From: Gloeobacter violaceus PCC 7421
GTDB taxonomy: Bacteria; Cyanobacteriota; Cyanobacteriia; Gloeobacterales; Gloeobacteraceae
Length of the DNA: 64,000 nucleotides
Direction: 5' to 3'
Assembly (NCBI RefSeq): GCF_000011385.1
Contig: NC_005125.1
Location: forward strand, 930,001 to 994,000
The notes under the pieces were generated by a model, which was given only the letters and a program-made list of their open reading frames with translations, was not told where the DNA came from and did not search any database. Shown here one piece after another: positions 43,632 to 52,117 of the stretch. How positions within the stretch are numbered: the first letter of the stretch is position 1; each line of letters opens with the position of its first letter. Position numbers and translations under genes: made by a program.

Positions 43632-45913
43632 AGCATACCCGTTGAGCTGGTGGTCTCAGTAGTCTCAGTGGTCTCGGCCGGTGTGGAGGCGGGGGGGGTG
43701 CGCCACTGGTCGAAGTTGAAGCGCTGCCAGAGGGCGCCGTCGACGCGGGCCACCGGCACCGGTACGAACGGTTCGGGGCGCTGCCGGGGCCGGAAGGTCA
43801 TCAGCTGGGCGCCGACGGTCGGGGGGGTGCGACGGTAGATGGCGTCGAACTGGACCCGCAGGCCGTAACTATTATCCCCGTAGAGCAGATTTTGGGTATT
43901 GGGGGCGTAGCGGGGCGGACCGATGGCAATGGCCGGGGCAATCAGCGATCCCACCAGCCGCGCGCTCCCTTCGCTCAAGAACGGACCATTGCTGAAGATC
44001 TGGGCCTGCAACCGCATCAGGGGCACCACCTGCGCTTCGCCGCGCACACTCTCGCGCTGGAGCGAGCCTTGCTGGCCGCGGCTGTTGACGCCGATGGAGA
44101 CGAGCACCTCAGGCGCGTCCCGCTCCGAAAGGCGGGCCAGGATGTAGTTGCGCCGGTCGAGGGTGACCGCCCTGGCGCCGCTCGGGATGCTGATGCCGTC
44201 CACGGTGACGCTGCTAATCAGCCGCCTGAGGGTGGTGGGCAGGTTGGGCGGGGCACCGATGTCGCGTTCGAGATCCTTGCGCTCGACGGTCAGGGGAATA
44301 CCGCGGGCGTTGGCCAGTACCGTCACCGGGATGCCGCTGGAGAAGGACATCTTGATGGCGGGCGGCTTGGGGGGCGGTCCCGCCGGGGGGGCGTTCGGCT
44401 GGCCGGGACGACCGGTGGTAGAGCCGCCGAGGCCGGAGGCGCCGCCCGGGGGCACCGGGGCACCGGGCAGGGTGGATCCGGCTGGAGTGGAGGGGGTTGT
44501 CGAACCGCCGGGGGTGGAAGCGCCTGTTCCTGCCGCCCCGGCAGCCGCCTGGGCCTTCGGATCCGGCGGCTTGAGGGCACAGACGATCGTCAGGCTGTCG
44601 CTTGCTCCCAGCGGCACCAGGCCGGCATTTTCCAGCGACAAACAACTGCTGCTGCTGGTGATTACCAGGGTGCCCCGGCCCTTGTAGGTAAAGACTTTGA
44701 ACGGCTGGCCGCGCAACAACAGCGTGCGGTCGGGCAGATAAAATATCCCGCGCCGGGCTTTATTAAAGTCAAACTCCGCTTTTTTGGCGTCGTAGATCGT
44801 CTCGCCGCGCGGGTTGAGGATGTTGTTGGCGTCGTTGAAATCCTTGCGGAAGGTGGTGCCCGCTTGACCAATCAATTCTGCCAGCGGCACGGTGAGCTGC
44901 AGCGTGCCGGGGCTTTCGGACTCCTCGAAGCTCTCGAAGTCGGCTTCTAGATCGATTTTGCCCGGCCGGGCGAAACGGCGGTCGCCCCCCTGGCTGAGGA
45001 TCGTCTTTTCTTTGTCGTTGGCAAACTTGAACAAGTCCGGGTTGAGGGGCCGGGCGGGGGTACCGTCGGTACTCTCGCCGTAGGAGGAGCCGGTGTCGGG
45101 GTTGCGCGGTGCGGTGACGGTGAATTTGGCCTGACCCTCCAATCGCGCCCAGTCCCCCTCGACTTTGGGCGTATCGACGAGCACCGGCCCTTCGATGCGG
45201 ATGCGGCTCGGTTGCTCCTGGGCGACTTTCAGGCTAAAAGGCGGCAGCGGTTCCGGATTGACCTTGGCGACCGAGACCACTCCCAGGGCGACTTCCGGGC
45301 GGCGGGTGACCGCTTGGGCGTTCAAATCCACCGCCAGGCGCAACGTCTGGGCCACCGCCTGGCGCCCGTCGCTGCCGTCGCCGCCGCTCTCGCCCACGAC
45401 CTCCACCTGGCGGGCCGCCACCGGCAACAGGCCGCCGCCCTCGACCGCCTCGGCCACCGACAGCGGGATCCAGCGCACCGCCCCCAGCTGATGCACCCAC
45501 CAGCGCTGATTCGGGGTGCCTTCTTTGAGGGCCGTGGCTTCGAAGGTATCGGGCAAGGGCTCGGCGCTCATCAGATCGTGCATGCCGAGCACAGTGCCGT
45601 CGAAGGAAAGCTTGGCGTAGCCCAGATAAAATTTGCCGTCGCGGCGGTAAAGACCAAACGGGCCGGTATCCTCGGCAAAGACCGCCTCGCCCCGGTCGTT
45701 CATCGAGAGCAACTGGCGGCCCATGCGGCTGCGGACATGGGTGAGGGCCGATTCTGCCGACAGGTACGCTTCGGTGCGCGCTCGTTCGCCGGTGGTGGCG
45801 CGGGAGTTGTTGACCGAGACCGAGAAGACGGTCGTCCCCACCACCAGCAAAATCGCCCCCAAAAGCAGCACCAGCACCAGGGTGAAGCCCCGGCGGTTGC
45901 GGATGCGTCTCAC
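43628..45913 (-). CDS. Giant prepilin-like protein (761 aa)
   Basis: A basic leader then RGFTLVLVLLLGAILLVVGTTVF is a type IV/type II prepilin signal (cleavage after G, N-methylated F), and LSAESALTHVRSRM follows, as in PilX/GspK minor pilins. The very large remainder contains no recognisable domain to about residue 450, a Pro/Gly/Thr-rich linker (about 455-525, ending PPAGPPPKPPAIK) and a beta-rich C-terminus with EVLVSIGVNSRGQQGS and LVGSLIAPAIAIG. It may be a tip or adhesin pilin. The ATG overlaps the secretin stop by 4 bp. Confidence 0.8.
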   Translation of the reverse strand: MRRIRNRRGFTLVLVLLLGAILLVVGTTVFSVSVNNSRATTGERARTEAYLSAESALTHVRSRMGRQLLSMNDRGEAVFAEDTGPFGLYRRDGKFYLGYAKLSFDGTVLGMHDLMSAEPLPDTFEATALKEGTPNQRWWVHQLGAVRWIPLSVAEAVEGGGLLPVAARQVEVVGESGGDGSDGRQAVAQTLRLAVDLNAQAVTRRPEVALGVVSVAKVNPEPLPPFSLKVAQEQPSRIRIEGPVLVDTPKVEGDWARLEGQAKFTVTAPRNPDTGSSYGESTDGTPARPLNPDLFKFANDKEKTILSQGGDRRFARPGKIDLEADFESFEESESPGTLQLTVPLAELIGQAGTTFRKDFNDANNILNPRGETIYDAKKAEFDFNKARRGIFYLPDRTLLLRGQPFKVFTYKGRGTLVITSSSSCLSLENAGLVPLGASDSLTIVCALKPPDPKAQAAAGAAGTGASTPGGSTTPSTPAGSTLPGAPVPPGGASGLGGSTTGRPGQPNAPPAGPPPKPPAIKMSFSSGIPVTVLANARGIPLTVERKDLERDIGAPPNLPTTLRRLISSVTVDGISIPSGARAVTLDRRNYILARLSERDAPEVLVSIGVNSRGQQGSLQRESVRGEAQVVPLMRLQAQIFSNGPFLSEGSARLVGSLIAPAIAIGPPRYAPNTQNLLYGDNSYGLRVQFDAIYRRTPPTVGAQLMTFRPRQRPEPFVPVPVARVDGALWQRFNFDQWRTPPASTPAETTETTETTSSTGML

Positions 45914-47808
45914 CGCGGCGGCTCCAGGGGCAGTTTGGTGTCGGGTAACGGCTGCACATCGCGCACGCGCGGGGTGATGAAGACCACCAGTTCGCTCTGC
46001 TCCAGGCTCACATTGGTGTTGCTGAACAGCTGGCCGATAAGCGGGATGTAGCCAAAAAACGGCACGCGGGTGATGACCTCGCGGTTGGTGGTCTGGATGA
46101 GCCCGCCGATTTCGAGGGTCTGGCCGTCTTTGACCAGGATGATATTTTTGACCTTGCGCCGGGCAATGTTCGGAGGGACGGTCGTGCCGGACGAGGTCAA
46201 CGTGGTGGTGCCCTGGGGCACGGAGGATTCGACGCTCAATTCGGCCAGCACATTGCCGTCGGCCTGGACGGTGGGGGTCAGTTCGACCACGGTGCCGGCG
46301 CGGAGGGTGCTGAGGGTGGTGTTGTTGACGGTGGCGCCGCTGACGTTGGTTAGCTGGTTGAGAATCAAGTTGATGTCGGTTTGCACGTCGATCGACGCTT
46401 TTTGGCCAGTGATCGTGTTGAGCTTGGTGTCGGTGACCACCCGCGCTTTGTTCTCGGTGATCAGCCCGTTGATCACAACGATGGCGCGGGCGATGTCGTT
46501 GAAGGTGGCAAACGAGGTGGGCGGCGAGAACAAACCACCCAAGCTCAAAGGAGCGGTGTTGCCGGGGGAGACGGCGCTGCCGGACTGAATGGTGCGCAGG
46601 GCGTTCAGTTCGCGCGAACCGGCGTCGCTCAGTTCGACGATCTTCACCTCGAAGACCACCTGGCGCAGGGGCTTGTCGATCTGCTGCAACAAGTCGCGCA
46701 CCCGGGTGCGCAACACGTCGGTGCCGCTCACCACCACGGCGTTGCGCGGCTCGTCGATTTTGACAAATTGGGTGAGGCTCGCCGGGATGAGCTTGGGTAC
46801 GTTTTTCGCCTGGGTGAACGAGAGGGCGATAGCTTCGGTGCGCTCGATGGCCCGGCTGGTGGGGGTGCCGGGGGTGGCATCGCCGATGAGGTAGGTGCGG
46901 CCCTCGCGGACGAATCCGTAGCGGGTGCCGTTGAGCAGTTGGCCGAGGGCCTCCTCGAAGGGGATCCCCGAGACCCGGCCGGTCACCCGGTCGGAGAGTT
47001 GGCCTTTGATGATGAGCTGCGCCCCCGCCTGGTTGGAAATATTTTCGACCACGGTGCCCAGCTCGGCGCTTTTGACGCTGAAGCTGACCGGCCGCTTGCT
47101 CGGGTCGGCGCCGCCGGGGGTCGTCGGTACCGGCAGTTGGGGCAGGCCGCTTTTGAGTTGGCTCACGACATAGACATTGCCTTCGGATTTGTTGATCGTG
47201 AGGCCCGCCACCTGGGCGACGGCGGTGAGGGCGTCGTTGAAGGTGACCTGTTCGAGGTTGAGCGAGACCCGGCCGCTGACCGAGCTTTCGGTGACGACGT
47301 TGGCCCTGGCCACCCGCCCGAGCAGCGCAAGGGTGTCTTTGACATCGCCGTCGCGCACCTTCAGGCTCACCCGCTCTTCGGGTGACACCTGCGGCGGCGT
47401 CTGGGCTATGGGCGGAGGGGGCGGCACCGTGGCCAGTCCCCCCGAGCCGCGAATTTCGATAGTCTGGCTATCCGCCACCGCTTGGCCGGCCACGACCTGA
47501 TAGGTGCTGCCCAGGGCGCGGGGGCGGTAGGTGAGGCGCATTCCCCCGGCCACCACCTGCACGCTCACCGTCCCGGCGGCCGTCTCCTGGCTCGCGGCCA
47601 CGCTGCCCGGTTCGGTGCCGGGCAAAAACAGCACCACCTCGTTGGGGGTGTTGCGCTCGATTTGAAAGGCGACCGTCCCGGCGGTGCGGATGCGCAGGGT
47701 ATTGCCTTCCACATCGATGCCCGCCAGGGGGGCGGCCCAGGCCGCCGTACTCAGACAGCCGGCAAGCAGGAATCCGGCGGGCAAGCTCAGCCAGCGTTTC
47801 ACGTGCAT
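45910..47808 (-). CDS. Secretin of the PilQ/GspD family
   Basis: This is a 632-residue protein. Signal peptide: LSLPAGFLLAGCLSTAAWAAP. An AMIN-like N-domain (IDVEGNTLRIRTAGTVAFQ) is followed by STN/N0-N1-type repeats (VSLKVRDGDVKDTLALLGRVARANVVTESSVSG), a Pro-rich gap, and the secretin core (FEVKIVELSD, VELTPTVQADGNVLAELSVESS, VKNIILVKDGQTLEIGGLIQTTNRE, VPFFGYIPLIGQLFSNT, ELVVFITPRV). It forms the outer-membrane channel for a pilus or secreted protein. Overlaps the prepilin gene by 4 bp. Confidence 0.93.
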   Translation of the reverse strand: MHVKRWLSLPAGFLLAGCLSTAAWAAPLAGIDVEGNTLRIRTAGTVAFQIERNTPNEVVLFLPGTEPGSVAASQETAAGTVSVQVVAGGMRLTYRPRALGSTYQVVAGQAVADSQTIEIRGSGGLATVPPPPPIAQTPPQVSPEERVSLKVRDGDVKDTLALLGRVARANVVTESSVSGRVSLNLEQVTFNDALTAVAQVAGLTINKSEGNVYVVSQLKSGLPQLPVPTTPGGADPSKRPVSFSVKSAELGTVVENISNQAGAQLIIKGQLSDRVTGRVSGIPFEEALGQLLNGTRYGFVREGRTYLIGDATPGTPTSRAIERTEAIALSFTQAKNVPKLIPASLTQFVKIDEPRNAVVVSGTDVLRTRVRDLLQQIDKPLRQVVFEVKIVELSDAGSRELNALRTIQSGSAVSPGNTAPLSLGGLFSPPTSFATFNDIARAIVVINGLITENKARVVTDTKLNTITGQKASIDVQTDINLILNQLTNVSGATVNNTTLSTLRAGTVVELTPTVQADGNVLAELSVESSVPQGTTTLTSSGTTVPPNIARRKVKNIILVKDGQTLEIGGLIQTTNREVITRVPFFGYIPLIGQLFSNTNVSLEQSELVVFITPRVRDVQPLPDTKLPLEPPR

Positions 47809-47829: not shown

Positions 47830-49407
47830 CTAGACTGACACAACCCGCAGAAGTTCCTCAATGGTGGTGCTGCCCTCCATGACCTTGGCGATGCCGGCCT
47901 CGGGCAGCGAGCGGATGTTGCGCGCGCGCAGGTAGGTGGTGATTTCGGCGTTGGAGGCGCGGGCGTGGATGAGCCCCTGCAGGTGGTTGTCGACTTCCAT
48001 CACCTCGAAGATGCCCTCGCGGCCGAAGTAGCCCGACCCGAAGCAGTGCTGGCAACCGTGGGCGCGCTTCCATTCGAGCGGAACATTGGCGTACTCGGGG
48101 TGGGCGTCCAGTTTGAGCCGCTGCAGATCGACGCTGTCGGGGCAGTACGGTTCGCCGCAGTGGCGGCACACTCGGCGCACGAGGCGCTGGGCAACCACCC
48201 CCACCAGCGCCCCGGCGATGAGATAAGGCTCCACCTGCATGTCCAGGAGGCGGCTCACGGCACTGGGCGCGTCGTTGGTGTGCAGTGTGCACAGCACCAG
48301 GTGACCGGTCATCGCCGCCTGGAACACCGTCTGGGCGGTCTCCAGGTCGCGGATTTCACCCACCATGATGATGTCGGGGTCTTGCCGGAGAATCGAGCGC
48401 AGGCCGCTTGCGAAGGTGAGACCCGCCTTCGGGTGCACCTGCACCTGGTTGATCCCGGCAAGCTGGTATTCGATCGGATCTTCGATCGTGACGATGTTGC
48501 ACTCGGGCTTGAGGATCCCGCGCAGGCTGGTATAGAGTGTGCTGGTCTTGCCGGAGCCGGTGGGGCCGGTGATGAGGATTAACCCCTGGGCGCGGCCGAG
48601 CCAGTGGCGATAGGTGGCCAGGTCCGCCGCGTCAAATCCTAGTTCCTCCAGCAGCGTGAAGGTGTTGTTCTTGGGCAGCAGCCGCAGGACTGCTTTTTCG
48701 CCGTGCAGGCAGGGCAGGGTGCTCACGCGCAAATCGACTAGTTGGCCGTTGATTTCTTGGGTGACGCGGCCGTCCTGGGGGCTTCTGTGGTTGGCGATGT
48801 CGAGTTCGGCGAGCACTTTGACCCGTGAGATGAGCGCTTTGCTCTCGGCAACCGGAAAAGTGCCCATCTCGCGCAGCAGGCCGTCGATGCGAAAGCGCAC
48901 CCTGAGACCGTCTTCCTGCGATTCGAGGTGGATGTCGCTTGCGCGGCTTTTGAGCGCTTCGTTGAGGAGTCTTTGCAACTGGGCGCTGATGCGCTTGCCT
49001 TCGGGAGTGCCGTCGGTGCCGATGGTGATGGCAACCGAGGGTTCGGCCGCCGCGAGGGGCTCAAGACCGCCCCCTCCGGCAGCCTGAAAATATTCCGGCA
49101 GCCGCTCGCGCCCGATTTGCCACCAGCGGCGCACCTCTGAGGAAGCCAGGGTCAGGGCGCGAAGCTCGCAGGGCAGTTTCTCGCGCAATCGGCGCAGATC
49201 GGTCTCGCCGAGGGCGCTGAAGCTACCCAGATAAAGCTGTTTGTTAAAAAAGGCGAGCGGGACGATAGAGCGCAGTTCTTCGCCGAGCTTGCCGCTCAGC
49301 GAGCGGATCAAGTTCCAATCGAGCGACTCGGGAAGCAGCACGACGCCGATACCGGGGCTTTCGGCGATGGGCAGTTTCAATTCCGGGGGCAGCGTATAAC
49401 CTTGCAT
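47830..49407 (-). CDS. Type II/IV secretion ATPase (GspE/PilB family)
   Basis: A 525-residue hexameric ATPase. N-terminal T2SSE_N-like domain, then IHLESQEDGLRVRFRIDG, Walker A GPTGSGKTSTLY, Asp-box NIVTIEDPIEYQLAGINQVQV, Walker B DPDIIMVGEIRDLETAQT, and His-box HLVLCTLHTNDAPSAVSRL. The zinc tetracysteine is CRHCGEPYC ... CQHCFGSGYFGREGIFEV. It powers pilus extension or secretion and is the first gene of the operon. No PilC/GspF platform gene is next to it. Divergent from the AAA/polyferredoxin gene (172 bp apart). Confidence 0.95.
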   Translation of the reverse strand: MQGYTLPPELKLPIAESPGIGVVLLPESLDWNLIRSLSGKLGEELRSIVPLAFFNKQLYLGSFSALGETDLRRLREKLPCELRALTLASSEVRRWWQIGRERLPEYFQAAGGGGLEPLAAAEPSVAITIGTDGTPEGKRISAQLQRLLNEALKSRASDIHLESQEDGLRVRFRIDGLLREMGTFPVAESKALISRVKVLAELDIANHRSPQDGRVTQEINGQLVDLRVSTLPCLHGEKAVLRLLPKNNTFTLLEELGFDAADLATYRHWLGRAQGLILITGPTGSGKTSTLYTSLRGILKPECNIVTIEDPIEYQLAGINQVQVHPKAGLTFASGLRSILRQDPDIIMVGEIRDLETAQTVFQAAMTGHLVLCTLHTNDAPSAVSRLLDMQVEPYLIAGALVGVVAQRLVRRVCRHCGEPYCPDSVDLQRLKLDAHPEYANVPLEWKRAHGCQHCFGSGYFGREGIFEVMEVDNHLQGLIHARASNAEITTYLRARNIRSLPEAGIAKVMEGSTTIEELLRVVSV

Positions 49408-49579: not shown

Positions 49580-52117
49580 ATGCAGCCGACCGCCGCCGAG
49601 GCCATCCCCTGGCTTCGTGAAAATACCCTCTTCGCAGCGCTAGGTGAAGCGGCCCTCGCCGATTTGGCGGGCGAACTGACTGAGCAAACGGTCCAGGGCA
49701 ATCGGCGGCTGGTACTCGAAGACAGCCCTGCCGAAGAACTGATCATTCTCAAAGAAGGCCGCCTCGAAAGTTACCGCACCAGTCCGAGCGGCCCGGCCGC
49801 CGCGCTCAGTTTGCTCCCAGGTTCGGTGGTGCATCTAGTCGAACTGCTGATGGAGCGCCCCGTGCAACGGACGCTTATCACCCTTGCCGACTGCCGGCTT
49901 TGGATCGTTCCGGCGGTGCGCTTTCGCGAGCTTGCTGCCCGCTATCGCGAGATCGCCCGCGCTCTGCCGGAGGCGCTGGCGGCAGAAGTGGCGCAACTGG
50001 CGGCCCAGCTCAATTACGAACAGGAGCGCGCCGCCGCGCTCAGGCCGTATCTAATTACCCGCGCCCGCCGCGGCATCGTCGGCAAGAGCCGCTACGCCGC
50101 CACCCTGCGCCGCCAGATCCGGTCGGCCACGGCCGATCGCAAGCCCGTGCTCCTCTTCGGCGAACCGGGCCTCGAAAAGGACAACGCGGCGGCCCTCATC
50201 CACTTCGGCTCCCCCGCCCGCCGCGAACCGATTATCCAGGTGAATTGCGCCACGCTGCAGCCGGGGGGTGCCGATCTGTTCGGCCGGGCGGGCGGGCGGC
50301 CCGGCCTCATCGAGTGGGTGGGGGAGGGCACGTTGGTGCTCAACAACATCCAGGATTTGCCCGCCGGATTGCTCGCCACCGTCGAGCAGATGCTCGCTAC
50401 CGGCACCTACCGGCCTGTCGCCCGCCCGGAGGAGATCCCCCCCGCCCCGCGGCCCTTGCGCGCCCGCGTCGTGCTGGTTTCTGAAAAAGCGTTCTCGGGC
50501 CTGGAGCGGCTGATGGGCCAGGTCATCAAGGTACCGCCACTGCGGGTGCGCAAGGGCGATATCGCCGTGCAGGTCGATTACTACCTCAATTTGCTGGTCA
50601 GATCCGAGGGGTTACCCTTCAAGCCGCGCGTCAGCCCCGAGGCCCTCAGGCGATTGCAGAGCTACGATTTTCCGGGCAACCTGGCGGAACTGGCCACGCT
50701 GGTGAGTCGTGCGGTTTCCCAGGCGGCCGGGGCGCGCGAACTGAGCGAAGAAGTCTTCTGGCCCGCCCAGGGGCGCAAAAAACGCTTTCGCGCCAATTTG
50801 CTCAACGGCTTTCCGTGGCTGAGGCGCTTTTTGCGCAGCGCCTGGTGGCCCGACCGGATCAACTTCGGATTTACCGCCGGTTTTTTCGTTTTTATCGTCG
50901 CCGTGCTCTTTGTCGGGCCGCAACAGCGCGAGGAGAACTTTGCCCTCAATATGTTCTGGGCCTGGTGGTGGCCGCTGGTATTGGTCGGTTTCCCTTTCGT
51001 GGGCCGCCTCTGGTGTGCGGTTTGCCCCTTCATGATCTGGGGAGAAATCGTCCAGAAAATCTCGTTGCTTATCTTTCCGCGCACCCTCAGGCGCTGGCCC
51101 CGCGAGCAGGCCGAGCGCTGGGGCGGTTGGTTTCTCTTTGCCCTATTCGTCCTGATTTTTCTGTGGGAAGAACTGTGGGATCTGCAGAACACCGCCTACC
51201 TTTCTGCCTGGCTGCTGTTACTGATTACCGGCGGGGCGGTGGTCTGTTCGCTGATCTTCGAGCGGCGCTTCTGGTGCCGATATCTGTGTCCGATTGGCGG
51301 CATGAACGGTCTATTCGCCAAGCTCTCCGTCACCGAACTGCGCGCCCAACAGGGCATCTGCTCAGCCACCTGCACCACCTACCAGTGCTACAAAGGCGGT
51401 CCCGCCAAGGACGAAGGCCAGGCCACCGGTGGCTGTCCGCTCTACTCCCACCCCGCCCAGCTCGAGGACAACCGCGACTGCGTGCTGTGCATGACCTGCC
51501 TCAAAGCCTGCCCGCACCGCTCGGTCGAATTGAACCTGCGCCCGCCCGGCATCGAACTGTGGACGACCCACGTCCCACGCGGCTACGAGGTGGCGCTGTT
51601 GCTGTTGCTATTGGGCGGCGTTTTTCTGCATCGCTTACCCGAGGTGCAGAGCCGCCTCGGCTGGCCGTGGGGGATTGAGGCGTTTGGAGCACATCTGGCG
51701 CTGGCGCTGATCGCCCTGGCAGTCCCGGCCTTGGTACCGCTCGCAGCCCACGGCCTGTTTCGCCTGGTGGCAGGCGGGCAGAGCGCCCGGCCGTTCGTCG
51801 AACTGGCCTATGGCTATTTGCCCCTGGTGTTGGGAGGCACCCTCGCCCATTACTTAAATCTCGGCCTCGGGGAAGCGGGAAGGATTGTTCCGGTTACCTT
51901 AGCCACCTTTGGCCTTGCCGGAGCGAACCTGCCGGTGCTGGTTGCCCACCCGGCAGTGATCACTTTTTTGCAGGGTGCCTTGCTGATCGCATCGGTGCCG
52001 CTCAGCATCTGGTTGACCCAAAAAATCGCGCGCATTCCCGTGCGCTCACTGTTACCGCAGCATCTGGGGGTGTTGACTCTAGCTGGCGGGCTATGGGTGC
52101 TGATTGTCGGGTATTAG
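49580..52117 (+). CDS. Fusion: cNMP-like sensor, degenerate sigma54-type AAA+, membrane polyferredoxin
   Basis: An 845-residue chain. Residues 10-130 resemble a CRP-type cNMP domain. Residues 165-395 follow the sigma54-activator AAA+ template, but Walker A GESGTGKE reads GEPGLEKD, Walker B FLDEI reads VLNNI, and the GAFTGA loop is absent; the SYDFPGNLAEL landmark is kept. From 430 come membrane helices with NapH/NosR-like CAVCPF and CRYLCPIGG, then cysteine clusters CSATCTTYQC (594-603) and CVLCMTCLKACP (634-645), and a multi-helix C-terminus. Likely a membrane redox/ligand sensor or electron-transfer protein rather than an ATPase or transcription factor. Confidence 0.85.
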   Translation: MQPTAAEAIPWLRENTLFAALGEAALADLAGELTEQTVQGNRRLVLEDSPAEELIILKEGRLESYRTSPSGPAAALSLLPGSVVHLVELLMERPVQRTLITLADCRLWIVPAVRFRELAARYREIARALPEALAAEVAQLAAQLNYEQERAAALRPYLITRARRGIVGKSRYAATLRRQIRSATADRKPVLLFGEPGLEKDNAAALIHFGSPARREPIIQVNCATLQPGGADLFGRAGGRPGLIEWVGEGTLVLNNIQDLPAGLLATVEQMLATGTYRPVARPEEIPPAPRPLRARVVLVSEKAFSGLERLMGQVIKVPPLRVRKGDIAVQVDYYLNLLVRSEGLPFKPRVSPEALRRLQSYDFPGNLAELATLVSRAVSQAAGARELSEEVFWPAQGRKKRFRANLLNGFPWLRRFLRSAWWPDRINFGFTAGFFVFIVAVLFVGPQQREENFALNMFWAWWWPLVLVGFPFVGRLWCAVCPFMIWGEIVQKISLLIFPRTLRRWPREQAERWGGWFLFALFVLIFLWEELWDLQNTAYLSAWLLLLITGGAVVCSLIFERRFWCRYLCPIGGMNGLFAKLSVTELRAQQGICSATCTTYQCYKGGPAKDEGQATGGCPLYSHPAQLEDNRDCVLCMTCLKACPHRSVELNLRPPGIELWTTHVPRGYEVALLLLLLGGVFLHRLPEVQSRLGWPWGIEAFGAHLALALIALAVPALVPLAAHGLFRLVAGGQSARPFVELAYGYLPLVLGGTLAHYLNLGLGEAGRIVPVTLATFGLAGANLPVLVAHPAVITFLQGALLIASVPLSIWLTQKIARIPVRSLLPQHLGVLTLAGGLWVLIVGY

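Follow-up and report, generated by a model that had tools for sequence, protein, structure and literature searches.

The gene at positions 49580..52117 (+ strand) of the window, the 64,000-nucleotide stretch of Gloeobacter violaceus PCC 7421 DNA analysed here, encodes an 845-residue protein that joins a CRP-type effector domain (CNB), a AAA+ domain of the sigma54-activator type and a nine-helix membrane polyferredoxin. This is a genuine protein, conserved in many cyanobacteria, and its family is apparently undescribed, being an unusual fusion of known domain kinds; no description of the CNB/AAA/membrane Fe-S architecture was found in the literature searched. Judged from sequence, electron transfer is probably its core job, and the AAA/CNB part would be a non-hydrolysing regulatory or scaffolding cap.

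A fusion conserved across cyanobacteria

The genome is a single contig of 4,659,019 bases, of which the window covers positions 930001-994000. The open reading frame is continuous, and four Pfam domains match above their curated cut-offs, namely cNMP_binding (residues 38-122), Sigma54_activat (166-286), AAA_lid_14 (322-384) and Fer4_5 (543-584). Homologues (E <= 1e-20) occur in 104 of the 386 genomes of the cyanobacterial phylum, all within the same class, and in five of the nine genomes of the order. A frameshift that joined two genes was considered and is ruled out by collinear homologues in more than 100 genomes; these, together with a dN/dS of 0.12 against the Aphanocapsa lilacina copy, exclude chance and artefact.

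The alignment separates three groups. Clade I, which includes the window protein, comprises members with 54-66% identity to it (91% for A. lilacina). Clade II members are about 40% identical to the window protein and come from 10 of the 386 genomes, a count from which an eleventh match, a clade I protein at the threshold, is left out. Clade III members (42-45% identity) are confined to one family of small genomes and lack the CNB domain. In the tree, clade II and clade III each form a monophyletic group with 100% support; both sit on long branches, the outgroup branches are very long, and whether the two fall within clade I or outside it is uncertain. The AAA part is fused throughout the family, with the exception of one split gene and one deletion remnant. 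The split gene (L070, G342:C8:7149-9157) consists of two overlapping reading frames, one for the AAA part and one for the membrane part, and is either a real fission or a sequencing frameshift. The remnant (L074:5027-5785, - strand, on the complete Nostoc-like chromosome G284) has a large in-frame deletion that leaves 252 residues, the first ~50 joined to residue ~650 onward.

Taken domain by domain, the comparison with A. lilacina gives dN/dS values of 0.147 (AAA core), 0.058 (lid) and 0.085 (NapH-like part); in a Nostoc pair, with synonymous sites near saturation, they are 0.099, 0.085 and 0.032, respectively. The AAA domain, taken for dead in the first-pass annotation, is thus maintained by purifying selection.

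The AAA+ and CRP-type domains

The AAA+ core (residues 166-301; 50075..50482, + strand) falls in the sigma54-activator family by profile (PF00158, 45.4 bits against a cut-off of 20.2). Its best PDB relatives in a profile search are NifA, VpsR and FlrC, with which Foldseek agrees, and the nearest NCBIfam models are those of NorR, NtrX, PspF and other sigma54 activators, always far under the curated cut-offs. With activators such as NifA, NtrC and PspF the protein shares the AAA+ fold, the Walker A lysine, the LFG and DFPGNxxEL signatures and the AAA_lid_14 lid (residues 322-384; 50543..50731, + strand), in which the DFPGNxxEL motif lies. Unlike them, it has no GAFTGA loop and no Walker B acids, it is fused to a membrane Fe-S module, and no HTH or other DNA-binding domain is matched by Pfam anywhere in its 845 residues. 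The view that a sigma54-activator scaffold has been repurposed away from sigma54 is borne out by these features and by the genome, which lacks rpoN (see below).

The details of the nucleotide pocket differ in part from what had been noted at first. The Walker A motif, GEPGLEKD (50159..50182, + strand), was said to have lost its lysine context, which is incorrect: K200 is retained in 149 of 150 informative family members, and an acidic residue behind this lysine is normal in sigma54 activators (PMC7175178). The actual change is TG to LE immediately before K200; the G is still there in 19 clade I members, and nearly all clade II members have an ordinary G(T/S)GKT. The loss of the Walker B acidic residues is confirmed for clade I, where the motif, GTLVLNNI in the window protein (50327..50350, + strand), carries N255 (126 of 128 members) and N256 (127 of 128) in place of D and E. 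In clade II the motif is mostly (L/I)DN, with N at the second position, and most clade III members have D followed by a variable residue. Clade I keeps K200, D201, N255 and N256 almost without exception, so the altered pocket itself is under constraint. The loop that contacts sigma54 is indeed deleted in all clades: the window protein reads FGRAGGRPGLIE at the site of the missing L1/GAFTGA loop (50279..50314, + strand), and the family alignment has no GAFTGA insert at DLFGRAGGKPGLLEWLGEG in any clade.

VpsR, which is GAFTGA-less and sigma54-independent, shares the Asp-to-Asn change in Walker B (TLLLND). Activators of this kind, VpsR and Rhodobacter capsulatus NtrC, work with sigma70; for the latter ATP binding is reported to be required and hydrolysis not, and VpsR reportedly works without ATP (PMC10274813).

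No RpoN was found in the complete Gloeobacter genome with the PF04552 profile, which did match in four known control genomes. Phylum-wide, in 386 genomes, the profile scores above its cut-off just twice, once for a 202-residue reading frame with the DNA-binding domain only, on a Nostoc-like chromosome, and once, marginally, outside the class. The first (L178:2914-3522, - strand; G125:C1:411956-412339) has a sigma54 DNA-binding-domain match of 62 bits and an RpoN-box-like end, and a full RpoN is absent from it. Neither finding that would have overturned the first-pass annotation is seen, whether an intact Walker A/B and GAFTGA in close homologues alongside rpoN or a frameshift joining two genes. 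The family shows one possible fate for the AAA+ domain of an activator where sigma54 is almost absent from the phylum: it is kept under selection in ~100 genomes with its catalytic residues gone and joined to an electron carrier.

The effector domain (residues 38-122; 49691..49945, + strand) matches the cNMP_binding fold (PF00027, 42.8 bits against a cut-off of 27.5). As in CRP/FNR-type proteins it is followed by a long helix, predicted for residues 123-157 (49946..50050, + strand), which appears to occupy the position of the dimer helix of CRP proteins; unlike in those, the HTH is absent and the ligand residues are not conserved. Leu86 and Arg97 stand at positions that we take to be those of Glu72 and Arg82 of CRP, the cAMP-contacting residues there. 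Leu86 is found in 123 of 125 clade I members and Arg97 in only 32 of 125, and clade II has Tyr and mostly Thr at the two positions. With its phosphate-binding cassette and pocket degenerate, the protein is probably no cNMP sensor, and the cNMP-like sensing first proposed for it is not upheld, the fold itself excepted. The domain is missing from clade III and, in other families, from some members of clade I as well, whereas the AAA part remains fused apart from the split gene and the deletion remnant described above.

The membrane iron-sulfur module

A NapH-like module spans residues 422-665 (50843..51574, + strand) with four predicted transmembrane helices, two Cys-Cys-Pro pairs and a presumably cytoplasmic loop. 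The first pair is of the CX2CP type (WC479xxC482P) and the second of the CX3CP type (WC566xxxC570P), both invariant. The loop (51359..51514, + strand) holds two predicted 4Fe-4S motifs, both conserved, one oddly spaced (C594, C598, C603, C619) and one canonical (C634-x2-C-x2-C-x3-C644-P). All 12 cysteines of the module are retained wherever a member's sequence extends over them; the ATPase motifs, by contrast, vary. A C-terminal membrane domain (residues 668-845; 51581..52114, + strand) adds five predicted helices. H684 and H757 lie in predicted transmembrane helices and are conserved in clades I and II; one may speculate that these histidines hold heme or quinone.

The NapH/NosR-like nature of this part, also part of the first-pass annotation, is supported by NapH as its best NCBIfam match, though far under the cut-off of 213 bits (TIGR02163, 42.2 bits; 41.2 bits when the C-terminal part is searched alone). 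NapH, NosR and PceC (RdhC) share with it the membrane helices with Cys-Cys-Pro pairs and, for NapH and NosR, the 4Fe-4S region; they are thought to carry electrons between quinol and periplasmic enzymes (PMC5928378). The family protein differs from them in its first motif, which is CX2CP instead of CX3CP, in the odd spacing of one Fe-S site, and in the added five C-terminal helices and AAA/CNB cap. Genes of the nap, nos or rdh kind were not noticed near the family loci.

From hydropathy and positive-inside counts, nine transmembrane helices are predicted, and the cytoplasmic side would hold the N-terminal domains, the ferredoxin loop and both Cys-Cys-Pro pairs. The AlphaFold models are of moderate confidence and compatible with this topology, both for the whole protein (pLDDT 66.5, pTM 0.36) and for the membrane part (pLDDT 67.7, pTM 0.70), in which the ferredoxin loop has a pLDDT of about 30. 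Sequence searches of solved structures with the membrane module returned weak ferredoxin-like matches only (best E 0.0043), Foldseek on its model gave nothing at E <= 0.001, and VIA-align gave Z scores of at most 7 to unrelated helical proteins, which is uninformative.

An AAA-less relative of the module stands alone on plasmid pDFI1 of Deinococcus ficus (WP_027463891.1; 31.9% identity, 6e-42). It shares the membrane module over about 430 residues, Cys motifs included, and lacks AAA and CNB domains. At this locus (L159:5042-7323) the gene overlaps another whose product is secreted and His-rich, bears a transmembrane helix at its C-terminus and has no Pfam match.

Gene neighbourhoods and candidate function

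The gene is divergent from a secretion/pilus operon with genes for a GspE/PilB-type ATPase (47830..49407, - strand) and a secretin (45910..47808, - strand). This arrangement was correctly noted at first; a functional link is not supported. GspE, secretin and PilX-like genes adjoin the gene in four loci of the Gloeobacter lineage (the window, L077, L183 and L185, from Gloeobacter and A. lilacina) and were not found beside it in the other loci examined, including that of a genome of the same family (G392). The operon is no part of the system, and the idea that the protein is a working part of it, for which only the divergent layout common to these four loci speaks, is highly improbable.

In clade I no neighbours are conserved across families or beyond closely related genera, and the recurring neighbours in Nostoc look lineage-specific. 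In clade II, 7 of 12 loci have a cysteine synthase gene (cysK) on the same strand, immediately downstream or nearly so; these loci come from diverse families, and two are plasmid-borne. In clade I cysK is adjacent in 0 of 76 loci, four of which have it elsewhere in the stretch (Fisher p 1e-7 for adjacency; the loci are in part interdependent). DsrE, rhodanese, glutaredoxin-like, Hdr-like, MBL-fold with rhodanese and TauE, cytochrome bd or psbA genes (the last by Pfam and record annotation) occur at other clade II loci, a persulfide-dioxygenase-like gene is near some, and L176 and L177 lack all of them. The sulfur-gene queries apart from cysK came out of the clade II loci, which leaves the cysK count as the one fair test. 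The cysteine synthase genes point to a sulfur or redox role, and the neighbours as a whole suggest sulfide or low-oxygen redox biology for clade II. As clade I is without conserved neighbours, the sulfur link is supported for clade II only, and we extend it to the window protein by inference. As a separate observation, an Hdr-like trio (FAD protein, Fer4 and CCG domain) lies within a few genes of the clade II member at L040/L175 and L172 (G157, G262).

The reading that we prefer, at roughly even confidence, is that the protein transfers electrons at the membrane and carries its own cytosolic cap, a non-hydrolysing AAA/CNB part for control or assembly. The 12 invariant cysteines and the purifying selection on the AAA region argue for it, as do the constraint, strongest on the Fe-S module, and the likeness of the cap to GAFTGA-less activators. 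The predicted cytoplasmic placement of the cap and all Cys motifs, the stand-alone Deinococcus relative and the clade II neighbours also speak for it. Electrons would enter the nine-helix domain by way of the two 4Fe-4S clusters of the cytoplasmic loop and, at the cytoplasmic face of the membrane, the two Cys-Cys-Pro pairs; they would go to or come from quinone or another partner, the direction and partners being presumptive. In the cap, composed of the CRP-type domain and the AAA+ domain derived from a sigma54 activator, the loop that contacts sigma54 is gone, as are the two catalytic Walker B acids, which suggests that the cap would bind nucleotide or a partner without hydrolysis, and that it may oligomerise or gate the electron path and do no promoter work. 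The clade II protein would serve reduced-sulfur or low-oxygen metabolism beside cysteine synthase, and the clade I protein of the window a related redox job.

The same 12 cysteines would suit a sensor or a metal reductase equally well. The redox or ligand-responsive switch first proposed is plausible in general terms; in a specific form, redox state, the quinone pool, sulfide or NO would be sensed by the Fe-S membrane part, and the signal relayed through the AAA/CNB part to a partner protein or, in the manner of GAFTGA-less activators that work with sigma70, to RNA polymerase. The sensor-like CNB domain and the AAA domain of activator origin fit such a protein, and VpsR, one of the two sigma70-dependent examples, is a top relative; the missing DNA-binding domain, the nine helices behind the AAA domain and the absence of the CNB domain from clade III and several other lineages do not, and we consider it possible at rather low confidence. 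The conservation pattern, with all 12 cysteines invariant, CNB lost in several lineages and AAA kept, favours a regulated electron-transfer protein at least as much as a sensor. CcoG is described as a cupric reductase (PMC8456105), and an AAA/CNB-controlled membrane reductase of that kind, acting on Cu2+ or Fe3+, might supply reduced metal for cofactor assembly. The Deinococcus gene overlapping that of a metal-binding-looking protein would agree with this, but the His-rich partner matches no Pfam family and no recurring metal genes were noticed beside the cyanobacterial copies, and such a reductase appears unlikely. Still less probable is a sigma54 activator in decay whose fusion to a ferredoxin gene was accidental and whose AAA part has no present role: the catalytic and sigma54-contact motifs are gone and rpoN is absent, but core and lid are under purifying selection, the altered motifs are near-invariant, and the AAA part is still fused in about 100 genomes.

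If the AAA part of the preferred electron-transfer protein gates its Fe-S centres, this would be an uncommon use of a AAA+ domain. We tentatively suggest, as a possibility of low probability, a class of regulated electron carriers in which a non-hydrolysing AAA+ domain gates a polyferredoxin in oxygenic phototrophs of a lineage without sigma54, and of which one branch couples membrane redox to sulfide assimilation via the adjoining cysteine synthase. The cysK link of clade II offers a testable way into the cyanobacterial handling of reduced sulfur and low oxygen, of relevance to anoxygenic and early phototrophy. Synechocystis slr0593 ('cAMP binding membrane protein'), which might be a family member and on which no conclusion here depends, is listed in one iron-deprivation data set.
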